Positions 41,534-45,217 of a stretch of 50,842 bases of DNA are shown here, one piece after another (within the stretch, counting starts at the first letter, position 1; every line of letters starts with the position of its first letter). Made by a program: the position numbers and the translations under genes. The stretch is from contig PLOG01000188.1 of assembly GCA_003142935.1 (NCBI GenBank), forward strand, positions 15,263 to 66,104, written 5' to 3'. The notes under the pieces are model-generated. The model ran no database searches, was not told the origin of the DNA, and saw only the letters and a list, made by a program, of their open reading frames with translations. The stretch comes from Acidobacteriaceae bacterium. Lineage in GTDB: Bacteria; Acidobacteriota; Terriglobia; Terriglobales; Acidobacteriaceae.

Positions 41534-41788
41534 ATGGGTTCGCTCCGTTTTGACGGCGTTCGATTTACGGCCTACACGATGGACCACGCGCCCAGGCACG
41601 TGCACGGTTTCTACGCCGGGATCGAGGTCATCGTCGATCTTCGCCGGGATGGGACGGTCGCGCTCGCTCGCCGGAGCGACGCTATAAGGCCAGGCAACGG
41701 AAGCAAGGCGGATGTGCGCCACGTGCTGACCCTGGCCGCAAGACATTTCGACAAATTGGTATCACTTTGGGAGAAGCATCATGGCTGA
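41534..41788 (+). CDS. DUF4160-family small protein (putative toxin-antitoxin partner)
   Basis: An 84-residue protein of DUF4160 type: FDGVRFTAYTMDHAPRHVHG, then FYAGIEVIVDLRRDGTV, and a helical end DVRHVLTLAARHFDKLVSLW. The HAPRHVH segment matches the H-x2-PH-x-H pattern that defines the family. The biochemical activity is not established. It overlaps the DUF2442 gene by 8 nt. No Shine-Dalgarno sequence is present before the ATG. Confidence 0.8.
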   Translation: MGSLRFDGVRFTAYTMDHAPRHVHGFYAGIEVIVDLRRDGTVALARRSDAIRPGNGSKADVRHVLTLAARHFDKLVSLWEKHHG

Positions 41789-42212
41789 GCATAAGGTCAT
41801 CACAACCGATGCCGAGATTGAAGCGGCGCTCAAAAGAGCGAAACTCCACGACAGCGAACCGCGCGCACTGACGGTCGAACACATCCCCAGCCTCAACCTG
41901 CTCATCGTAGGACTCAGCAACCAGCGCCGGCTGGTACTCCCAACCGAAGAAGTGCAAGGGCTGGGCCAGGCCACGCACGAGCAGATGCGGAATTACAAAT
42001 TGATTGGCAGCGGAACCGGCATCTGCTTCCCTGAGTTGGACGTTGACCTGTATGTTCCCGCCCTGATCGAAGGCGTCTACGGAAACCGGCGCTGGATGGC
42101 GCAGTTGGGCAAGAAGGGCGGCAGTGCAAAAACCGAGGCCAAACAAGTTGCCGCAAGAGCGAACGGCGCCAAGGGCGGAAGACCAGCGAGACTTGCCGCG
42201 GTGACCGTCTAA
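41781..42212 (+). CDS. DUF2442-family protein
   Basis: A 143-residue protein. Residues ~10-95 form the DUF2442 domain (LKRAKLHDSEPRALTVEHIP, LTEVQGLGQATHEQM-like region, CFPELDVDLYVPALIEGVYG). The tail is basic, ending MAQLGKKGGSAKTEAKQVAA and ARANGAKGGRPARL, an AT-hook-like GRP sequence suited to DNA or RNA contact. DUF2442 genes often follow a DUF4160 gene, and the pair is proposed to be toxin-antitoxin-like; this is from memory. Overlap with the upstream gene is 8 nt, so translation is coupled. Confidence 0.82.
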   Translation: MAEHKVITTDAEIEAALKRAKLHDSEPRALTVEHIPSLNLLIVGLSNQRRLVLPTEEVQGLGQATHEQMRNYKLIGSGTGICFPELDVDLYVPALIEGVYGNRRWMAQLGKKGGSAKTEAKQVAARANGAKGGRPARLAAVTV

Positions 42213-42314: not shown

Positions 42315-42737
42315 CTAGCTCTTCTCCCACGGATTCACAACCGACGCCGCGATATCCTCGAAGTGCTTCACGTTGCGCGTGGCGAGAGTCGCGTGAGAAG
42401 CTAGCACGATTCCGGCGATCATCGTGTCACGAGCCTCGCGAGGCCATCCCTTTTTCTGCCCTTCCGCGTCCAAATCCGATGCGTTGTGCGCCGCTGCCAG
42501 GTCAAAGACGGCAATCCGTCCCTGAATCGTCTCATTCAGCAGATACTCAAACGCAAGTATGCGCGCTGTTCGGCGCTTTCCTGCTGGCATTGCAAGCAGG
42601 CCCGAGCGGATTTCGAATACGTTGATCGAGGACGTCCAAATCGACGGGCGCGGTTGGCGGTTCATCCAGAGCACTGCCGCGGGGTCAGGCACATCACGCA
42701 TGAATTCCGAAATCACGTTGGTATCAAGAATGATCAC
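42315..42737 (-). CDS. vapC: PIN-domain toxin (VapC/FitB-like)
   Basis: A 140-residue PIN ribonuclease. MIILDTNVISEFMR supplies the first Asp (residue 5), NVFEIRSGL the conserved Glu, REARDTMIAGI the third acidic residue and ATLATRNVKHF the last. Such toxins cut tRNA or rRNA. FitB is the closest remembered relative, given its partner. The start is GTG at 42737, 2 nt past the antitoxin stop. The frame remains open far upstream to 43076, but only on shadow sequence. The stop lies close to a short TCCC-type repeat. Confidence 0.88.
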   Translation of the reverse strand: MIILDTNVISEFMRDVPDPAAVLWMNRQPRPSIWTSSINVFEIRSGLLAMPAGKRRTARILAFEYLLNETIQGRIAVFDLAAAHNASDLDAEGQKKGWPREARDTMIAGIVLASHATLATRNVKHFEDIAASVVNPWEKS

Positions 42738-42994: not shown

Positions 42995-43006
42995 CTTCGC
43001 CTCCGT

Positions 43007-43022
43007 TGCTATCATGATAGCA
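43007..43022. promoter_or_regulatory. Palindromic operator with FitA-like half-sites
   Basis: TGCTATCA followed directly by TGATAGCA is a 16-bp perfect palindrome. From memory, the gonococcal FitAB operator contains exactly these half-sites, separated by about 12 bp. Here they abut. The element lies 12 nt upstream of the vapB ATG. Confidence 0.65.
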
Positions 43023-43092: not shown

Positions 43093-43134
43093 CTTTCTGT
43101 TCCCTGTTCCCTGTTCCCTATTCCCTGTTCCCTG
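43093..43134. repeat. TTCCCTG heptamer array inside the dsbD 3' end
   Basis: CTTTCTG, TTCCCTG, TTCCCTG, TTCCCTA, TTCCCTG and TTCCCTG are contiguous. The dsbD stop (TAG on the minus strand, 43118-43120) comes from the TTCCCTA unit and the preceding residues GNRE are also repeat-encoded. Confidence 0.85.
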
Positions 43135-45217
43135 CCTTCGGCAGCTTCGCTACCTCATCCATCACAATCCCCGGCGTCAGCACCTCAGGCAACATCACCG
43201 GTTCGCTCTGCCCCGGCGTGTAGAGCGCATACGCTGGAACCCCGCTACGGTCGAGAGCGGTGAGCGCCTGCGTGATGGCTTCGTCGTGCCGAGTCCAGTC
43301 GGCTTTCATCAGGACGACATTCCTCGCCTGAAACGCCTGAATCACCTCCGGCCGGCTGAGAGCGACGCGTTCGTTAACCTGGCAGCTCAGGCACCAGCTT
43401 GCGGTAAAGTCCACAAAAACCGGCTGCCCCGACCCAAGCGAACGGATGACTGCCTCCTGCGACCACGGCTGCCACAGCCCTTGAACCTCCGGCCCGCCTG
43501 AAGTCTCCGGCGCAGCCGCCAGCCTTCCCGGCGCGAACACGCTCACCGCAACCGCGACCAGCAAAATCGCCCCCGCGACGATACCCGCCCAGCGCTTGGC
43601 CGGCCAGCGCCCCAGAAACCACCCCGCAATCGCCAGCAGCAAAAAACTCGAAAGCAGCGACACCAGCAACCCAGCCCCGTAGGCTCCAGCCAGAACCCAC
43701 GCCAGCCAGATCACCGTAACAAAAATCGGCACGGAGATGGCCTGCCGCAGCACTTCCATCCACGCGCCGGGCCGTGGCAGCACCCGCGTCCACGCCGGCT
43801 GCAGGGTCAGCGCCACATAAGGCGCCGCCAACCCCAGCGCCAGCGCCGTGAACACCGCGAAGGTAACCGCGGCCGGCTGAGCCAGCGCGTACCCGATCGC
43901 CGCTCCCATAAACGGCGCGGTGCAGGGCGTGGCCACCACCACCGCCAACACCCCGGTGAAGAAACTCCCCGTGTATCCCCGCTTCGACGCCAATGAACCG
44001 CCGGCACTGGTGAGCGTCAGGCCAATCTCAAACTGCCCCGCCAGCGACAGCCCCATGAAAAACAGCAGCCCCGCCATCAGCGCCAGGAAAACCGGCGACT
44101 GGAACTGGAATCCCCAACCCAGCGTCGCGCCCGCTGCGCGCAGCCCCAGCAGCACCCCCACCAGCACCCAAAATGAAACCAGAATCCCAGCCGCGTAGAC
44201 GAATCCATGCGCTCGCAGCGTATGCCGCTCTTCGCTGCCCGAATTCACCAGCGCCAGCCCTTTCAAAAACAGCACCGGAAACACGCACGGCATCAGGTTC
44301 AACAGCAGCCCGCCAAGAAACGCCAGCGCCGTAGTCCTCGCCAGCAGCGCCCACGCGAGCGAAGGCGCAGGCGTGGTCACCGTTCCCGGCAGCGCCGCCA
44401 GTTCATACGCCCGTCCCCCAGACAGTTCGAGCACACCATTCAACTGCGCGGGATTGGCAACCAGGCTCGGGTCCTTCTGTAGGTCGAGAACGAAGCCCTT
44501 CTTCGCCGGCGTCACCTTCTGCGGGGCGGGATTCGAGAGAATGTCCTGATCGGCGGGAAAGAAAGCAGCCATCGTTTCCCGGTGGCCCGTCTCAACGCCC
44601 AGCCGGAACCCCTCCTGCGTAGGCTGGAAAACCGCCTTCACGCCGGCAGGCAGCGGCGTGGGCAGAGTGCTTGCGAGACGCTTCACGAGCCCCGCATCTT
44701 CGCCGGAACCCGAGACGACCGCGGGCTGTCCCGAGACCAGTTGCAAGGTTGCCGAGAGTTCGGCTTTGCCCGGCATGCAGACTTCGCGGCAGACCAGCCA
44801 GTCGACTTTGGCGTCGAGAGCTACCTTGCCGTCTTTCACAGTTGGCGCCACCTCGAGCTTCATCGGAAACAGGACTTCGTTCTCATAGCCGAAGTCCATC
44901 AGCGGCCCAAGCGGCAGCCGCTGCGGCGCGGGGAATTGCATTGGCCCCGCCGTCACTCCCGCAGGCAGCGTCCATTGAATGTGCGGCGGTCCCCCGGCGT
45001 CTCCGGCATTTTTCCAATACACGTGCCAGCCGGGCTCAAGCTTGAAATAGAGGCCGACCACGTTGTTTCCCGCGGGATAGAGCTGGTCTTGCGGGACTAC
45101 AAGTTGAACGTGGAGGTGCGGCACGTCGGCGGCGCCAGTTGCAGCCAACGCAGGGAACGCGGCGGCCAGCAGAGCGGCAACGAAAATGAGACGGGAAAGG
45201 CGCATGGCGGGAAACAT
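43118..45217 (-). CDS. dsbD: DsbD/ScsB-like thiol:disulfide interchange protein
   Basis: A 699-residue membrane protein that moves electrons from cytoplasmic thioredoxin to the periplasm. A signal peptide (LIFVAALLAAAFPALAA) leads into an N-terminal DsbD-alpha-like domain with the redox pair in VCREVCMPGK. Eight or so transmembrane segments follow (~290-560), with the paired membrane cysteines in LNLMPCVFPVLF and VATPCTAPFMGA. The C-terminal thioredoxin domain has the active site WCLSC near residue 617 (DFTASWCLSCQVNE). The layout is closer to ScsB than to E. coli DsbD. Start at 45217 with CAGGAG just upstream. A DsbA-like gene is at 13.6 kb. C-terminal residues come from a heptamer array. 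Confidence 0.92.
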   Translation of the reverse strand: MFPAMRLSRLIFVAALLAAAFPALAATGAADVPHLHVQLVVPQDQLYPAGNNVVGLYFKLEPGWHVYWKNAGDAGGPPHIQWTLPAGVTAGPMQFPAPQRLPLGPLMDFGYENEVLFPMKLEVAPTVKDGKVALDAKVDWLVCREVCMPGKAELSATLQLVSGQPAVVSGSGEDAGLVKRLASTLPTPLPAGVKAVFQPTQEGFRLGVETGHRETMAAFFPADQDILSNPAPQKVTPAKKGFVLDLQKDPSLVANPAQLNGVLELSGGRAYELAALPGTVTTPAPSLAWALLARTTALAFLGGLLLNLMPCVFPVLFLKGLALVNSGSEERHTLRAHGFVYAAGILVSFWVLVGVLLGLRAAGATLGWGFQFQSPVFLALMAGLLFFMGLSLAGQFEIGLTLTSAGGSLASKRGYTGSFFTGVLAVVVATPCTAPFMGAAIGYALAQPAAVTFAVFTALALGLAAPYVALTLQPAWTRVLPRPGAWMEVLRQAISVPIFVTVIWLAWVLAGAYGAGLLVSLLSSFLLLAIAGWFLGRWPAKRWAGIVAGAILLVAVAVSVFAPGRLAAAPETSGGPEVQGLWQPWSQEAVIRSLGSGQPVFVDFTASWCLSCQVNERVALSRPEVIQAFQARNVVLMKADWTRHDEAITQALTALDRSGVPAYALYTPGQSEPVMLPEVLTPGIVMDEVAKLPKAGNRE

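Follow-up and report, generated by a model that had tools for sequence, protein, structure and literature searches.

The FitAB system of Neisseria gonorrhoeae, which is the member of the FitA-like family that has been solved on DNA (PDB entries 2H1O and 2BSQ), was reportedly described by Mattison in 2006, and in it a tetramer of heterodimers is said to bridge two boxes. For the MetJ repressor, a tandemly repeated 8-bp palindrome is said to have been described by Davidson and Saint Girons in 1989, and both the 8-bp pitch and the structure on met boxes are known. According to excerpts of the published accounts, FitB tethers the FitA dimers to the operator in the FitAB structure (PMC3920265), each half of the FitAB repeat comprises eight positions of which six are contacted (PMC6118392), and the distance of approximately 60 angstrom between two RHH motifs of VapBC11 has been termed comparable to that of FitAB on DNA (PMC6265470).

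The window, i.e. the whole stretch of 50,842 nucleotides that was analysed, contains an antitoxin-toxin gene pair related to fitA and fitB (Table 1). The antitoxin, P0001, matched PF22513 with an E value of 2e-18 (66.5 bits, curated cut-off 27) and the toxin matched PF01850 with 37.4 bits. The toxin gene starts with GTG at 42737, 2 nt past the antitoxin stop. By sequence, the closest solved relative of P0001 is FitA (E 3.7e-5) and that of the PIN toxin is FitB (E 2.9e-12); in the alignment with FitB three of the acidic residues that matter in PIN toxins match, and the fourth position is N here and D in FitB. A DUF4160 and DUF2442 gene pair (41534-42212, plus strand) faces the toxin gene. On the other side, a 7-bp tandem repeat of CTGTTCC (5.4 copies, 43097-43134) is found between the palindrome described below and a DsbD-like gene (43118-45217, minus strand), the 3' end of which it overlaps.

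Table 1 Features of the antitoxin locus, in window coordinates
Feature	Position	Strand	Basis
16-bp palindrome, proposed autoregulatory operator	43007..43022	.	Scan, and adjacent-box sites in 18 of 80 genus genomes
Promoter-proximal box TGCTATCA on coding strand	43015..43022	-	Read from sequence
Gene-proximal box TGATAGCA on coding strand	43007..43014	-	Read from sequence
GGAGG, Shine-Dalgarno-like	43000..43004	-	Read from sequence
FitA-like RHH antitoxin P0001, 84 aa	42740..42994, stop included	-	PF22513 match
FitB/VapC-like PIN toxin	42315..42737	-	PF01850 match; best solved relative FitB

Upstream of the antitoxin gene, two abutting 8-bp boxes form the palindrome TGCTATCATGATAGCA, which was the single match in the window even when three mismatches were permitted (0.06 expected). 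An exact search of the 5.2 Mb genome with the pattern TGCTATCAN{0,30}TGATAGCA also returned this site as the only match. The 12 nt that separate the palindrome from the antitoxin ATG (42995-43006) include the GGAGG, and the original prediction of a palindrome at this distance before a FitA-like antitoxin gene was confirmed, the antitoxin belonging to PF22513.

The original prediction had also stated that the gonococcal operator has the same half-sites, approximately 12 bp apart. The DNA upstream of N. gonorrhoeae fitA (locus L052, retrieved with the FitA antitoxin sequence as query) reads TGCTATCA-TTTTTTTATTT-TGATAGCA. The stated half-sites are right, since both boxes are present there and are identical to those in the window, but the spacer is 11 bp, placing the boxes 19 bp apart from centre to centre (hereafter the pitch). 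This pitch fits approximately two helical turns between FitA dimers. Boxes at a pitch of 19 bp also precede the gene of the FitA-like antitoxin in Dyella flagellata (L105). The two systems thus share an RHH antitoxin, a PIN toxin and identical 8-bp boxes and differ in geometry, as the FitAB spacing of approximately 19-20 bp is replaced in the window by boxes that abut, at a pitch of 8 bp. They differ also in residues 3, 5 and 7, which face the DNA in RHH structures and are S-V-R in FitA and Q-L-R in P0001.

The adjacent boxes are conserved together with the antitoxin. The pattern TGCTATCAN{0,30}TGATAGCA matched at 20 sites in 19 of 298 related genomes, and the reversed control matched at none. 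The spacer was 0 in 15 of these sites, 1 in three, 3 in one and 13 in one, and judging from translations and positions a FitA-like gene adjoins all of them except the spacer-13 site. That site (L035, 641-669) lies between an excisionase-like and a CopG/DUF1778-like ORF, the families being named by eye. The same pattern gave seven sites in 249 genomes from the phylum of a Dyella genome (spacers 2, 5, 9, 12, 15, 25 and 25, none of 0; one control match), and six sites in 30 genomes behind loci of FitA relatives (30 of 80 such loci were chosen), with a spacer of 11 in N. gonorrhoeae, N. sicca and N. iguanae and of 3, 12 and 25 in the others.

A profile built from 15 P0001-type antitoxins was run against 80 genomes of the window's genus and yielded 20 strong hits, each with an E value no higher than 1e-30. 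This genus is acidobacterial, as a 100-base stretch in each of the loci L403, L411 and L415, taken from its genomes, is identical to DNA in the named Acidobacteria records L124, L127 and L122, respectively. The pattern TGMTAKCATGMTAKCA occurred at 18 sites in the same genomes, each just upstream of a P0001-type gene when coordinates were compared by eye. The palindrome is therefore kept in homologous acidobacterial loci, in that 18 of the 20 strong homologues have a perfect adjacent-box site; of the other two, one has a single mismatch (L270) and one is N-masked (L269). Two weaker hits in the genus were L272, with TGCGATCATGATAGCA, and L273, which is a member of a pitch-9 clade. Outside the genus, but within the clade of antitoxins having boxes at a pitch of 8 bp, the palindrome precedes two genes (L034, L036), TGATATCATGATATCG precedes six (L014, L327, L329, L333, L335, L336), and near variants or degenerate sites are found at L328, L330, L331 and L334. 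No adjacent pair within two mismatches was found in seven of 36 P0001-like proteins picked by sequence pattern, three of them inside the pitch-8 clade (L328 and L334, degenerate; L279, none) and four outside. The viral contigs scanned contained no P0001 relative.

These counts bear on whether the site arose by chance or through the recent spread of a single locus. Every pitch-8 carrier found is a related antitoxin in a genome of the window's phylum, as recent spread would produce, but over 30 clade members the 30-bp flank is only 28 % identical, compared with 68 % for the first 40 residues and 89 % for the 16-bp site, the last figure being affected by the selection of these members for a site with two mismatches or fewer. 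The reversed control found nothing in the 298 genomes, and that of the looser pattern TGMTAKCATGMTAKCA matched in 2 of the 80 genus genomes, compared with 18. Chance was rejected on the expectation in the window, the search in the Dyella phylum and the control windows. The 18 genus sites, the flank comparison and the control windows weigh heavily against chance or recent spread, to which we give practically no credence.

The original prediction had read the fused half-sites as the target of one dimer instead of two. A single antitoxin dimer could in principle read the 13 of the 18 genus sites that are perfect 16-bp palindromes. The remaining five, however, are direct repeats (TGCTATCATGCTATCA), and in 8 of 30 clade members the site is a tandem pair of TGATATC-type boxes. 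By parsimony, palindrome and direct repeat interchange five times on the clade tree, in which 3 of 27 branches are well supported. In addition, lone 8-mers are the unit at other pitches. The single-dimer reading was rejected on the direct repeats; the window site is probably not a one-dimer site, and replacement of the two FitAB dimers by one is unlikely. The 8-mers are themselves palindromic or nearly so (TGMTAKCA), and the direct repeats make the 8-bp box the unit, with the site consisting of two abutting boxes; most simply, the box is also what selection would act on. Since the box is palindromic by itself, occurs as direct repeats and recurs at pitches of 9, 11, 19 and 20 bp, binding by two dimers would be the simpler arrangement.

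The direct repeats also weigh against a further reading, that of a 5' hairpin formed by the palindrome in the mRNA to control antitoxin translation. If transcribed, the perfect dyad could pair as a 6-bp stem closed by a CATG loop, as read from the sequence, but the dyad is missing from the direct-repeat sites of the clade, for which reason the hairpin was rejected, and FitA relatives carry the same boxes 19-20 bp apart. We regard it as very improbable. Two dimers on two boxes remain the preferred arrangement.

To place these boxes within the family, antitoxin genes were located in 333 bacterial loci with an HMM made from FitA relatives and A1. The 312 hits (278 distinct) were reduced to 238 genes by leaving out 40 with an E value of 1e-6 or worse. 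Loci fetched by protein search or by position account for 235 of these genes; the other three (L282, L037, L033) came from loci fetched by DNA pattern only. Two strong hits, L269, with its masked upstream region, and L332, with an in-frame stop, are outside all gene counts, and the sample is uneven, leaning to Acidobacteriota and close FitA relatives. An exact copy of the looser box TGNWWNCA was found within 80 bp upstream of 202 of the 235 FitA-like genes, whereas 4.1 % of 2350 control windows drawn at random from these loci contain one, and in all 238 genes the box was found in 205, compared with 31 after dinucleotide shuffling. The half-boxes are mostly TGAT, TGCT or TGCA.

Box pairs with at most one mismatch per pair were strongly enriched at certain pitches among the 235 genes: 8 bp in 32 genes (0.2 expected), 9 bp in 100 (0.2), 11 bp in 20 (0.1), 19 bp in 31 (0.1) and 20 bp in 57 (0.2), with 10 bp in 6 (0.3). 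The spacer survey upstream of FitA homologues thus gave preferred pitches of 8, 9, 11 and 19-20 bp for the same box, and the idea in the original prediction of a conserved recognition box with a changed geometry held, although not that of one dimer. The commonest pitch in the sampled genes is 9 bp, so close packing is not unique to pitch 8. When the proteins were grouped into 63 clusters at 70 % identity, the majority pitch was 9 in 18 clusters, 19-20 in 10, 11 in 9, 8 in 7, another pitch in 6 and none in 13.

Several further patterns were observed in this sample. In a second FitA-like clade (MATITIRNLDEKVKR..., MPTITIRNLDETVKR...), represented by L002 (contig C55 of the same genome as the window), L274 and L275, the genes are preceded by two or three exact TGCTAGCA boxes, and box-like 8-mers between them extend these by eye to rows of three or four at a 9-bp pitch. 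Operators of L127, L058, L071 and other FitA relatives mix box distances of 19-20 and 9 bp, which is probably what a peak at a pitch of 29 bp reflects. Several pitch-11 genes (e.g. L022, L433, L303) precede a PIN-like type (VVDASVA...) different from the FitB type. Over the 235 genes, with relatedness ignored, half-box choice seems to track the residues at positions -4 and -2 from the conserved Arg. With T,T at these positions 84 % of 58 half-boxes are TGCT, and with S,V 92 % of 26 are TGAT, a hint of a code for base recognition.

The pitch follows the antitoxin tree. When each gene was assigned its best-scoring pair, 29 of the 238 had pitch 8, all of them encoding Q3 together with a hydrophobic residue 5, and pitch 8 was absent from the 199 genes that lack this combination. 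Of the 39 genes with it, ten had another pitch or none, and four of these (L279, L328, L334, L336) lie inside the pitch-8 clade, L336 having a pitch-8 pair that was outscored by another pair. That Q3 and L5 alone set the pitch is not supported, as Q3 with a hydrophobic residue 5 is found outside the clade also at pitches 9, 11 and 12. In a FastTree tree of the 235 proteins, to which each protein contributed no more than 75 residues, pitch 8 versus the rest required one change, located in the window's clade, which has 33 members and a printed support of 100 after re-rooting. Four pitch classes required 20 changes over 183 labelled genes (52 of the 235 carry no label of 8, 9, 11, 19 or 20), compared with 79-95 in 50 shuffles; shuffled labels ignore relatedness, so the result indicates joint inheritance of pitch and protein rather than control of the pitch by the protein. 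Within the pitch-8 clade Q3 is present in 100 % and R23 in 90 % of members, and basic residues are common at 19 and 22 (H19 in P0001). These residues are candidate determinants of the pitch, and shared descent would explain their distribution equally well.

In the reading that we consider probable, the palindrome is an autoregulatory operator of the FitAB type. The beta-ribbon of one antitoxin dimer would read each TGMTAKCA box, so that a dimer takes up a pair of half-boxes (TGCT or TGAT), and two dimers would be neighbours at a distance of 8 bp, in the manner of MetJ on met boxes. At this pitch the dimers would be approximately 27 angstrom apart (8 x 3.4), so they must pack side by side. Once bound, they would block RNA polymerase at a promoter, the -10 of which would overlap the first box. 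The sequences show the site, its conservation, its tie to this clade of antitoxins and the rules of box and pitch in the sampled genes; binding, the presence of two dimers, repression and the promoter overlap are all inferred.

The promoter-proximal box with the following T reads TGCTATCAT, which we infer to resemble an extended -10 element. The first box with its next base is TGNTATCAT in 26 of the 29 pitch-8 sites and begins with TGATAGCA in none, suggesting that the first box doubles as a -10; a scan of the locus with the sigma-70 consensus found no promoter pair. GGAG, GAGG or AGGA stands at the Shine-Dalgarno place in 26 of the 29 sites, and a PIN-like ORF, called by motif, is next in 27. 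The same TGNTATCAT counts could be taken to mean that the site is mainly a promoter element (an extended -10, TGnTATCAT), with incidental repetition and repression exerted elsewhere. The second box is, however, present in 29 of 29 pitch-8 sites, and box pairs at preferred pitches, some of them 20 bp apart, precede most of the 235 genes, making a mere promoter element a poor candidate.

More tentatively, FitA-like antitoxins may share a small set of half-boxes (TGAT, TGCT, TGCA) and evolve mainly by changing the pitch, with the pitch-8 toxin not bridging dimers and so loosening repression. If this is true, the pitch (8, 9, 11 or 19-20 bp) would be set by the surface between dimers, and because neighbouring dimers would touch at pitch 8, the toxin could not bridge them as FitB does. 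The toxin would in that case relax repression instead of strengthening it, a feedback logic other than that of FitAB. The family offers a series found in nature, with a nearly constant DNA box and a spacing of the bound dimers that would vary by clade, making it testable how toxin-antitoxin feedback evolves between toxin bridging and direct antitoxin contact. It also provides an easy guide to locating and interpreting the operators of a widespread family.

Among the matches listed, the literature on the octamers did not describe these boxes as operators of antitoxin genes, and the listed matches and excerpts from open-access PMC described no 8- or 9-bp or clade-specific pitch for FitA-like antitoxins. 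In the available parts of the respective papers, the VapB15 site of Synechocystis has a sequence different from the TGMTAKCA boxes, and no such box is given for PsA-PsT or VapBC47. MetJ is a corepressor-dependent, toxin-free metabolic repressor, with boxes of a sequence other than TGMTAKCA. The window site shares with it the tandem 8-bp palindromic boxes, found here at an 8-bp pitch in palindromic, direct and TGATATC versions; the title by Davidson and Saint Girons, in the reference list of PMC3274233, likewise names a tandemly repeated 8-bp palindrome for MetJ, an RHH protein. CopG and ParD2 are similar in that, as excerpted, chains of several RHH dimers lie side by side on the operator (PMC8251345), but they belong to RHH families other than the FitA-like one, and the likeness is one of chaining. 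RelB on relO, also from an excerpt, has RHH antitoxin dimers bound to a pair of adjoining half-sites between which no extra spacing is tolerated, but the half-sites are 12 bp with hexad repeats and the toxin is RelE (PMC2812701). Judged by its genes and upstream DNA, the locus is a FitAB-type operon, with an operator that has the family's box in another geometry.
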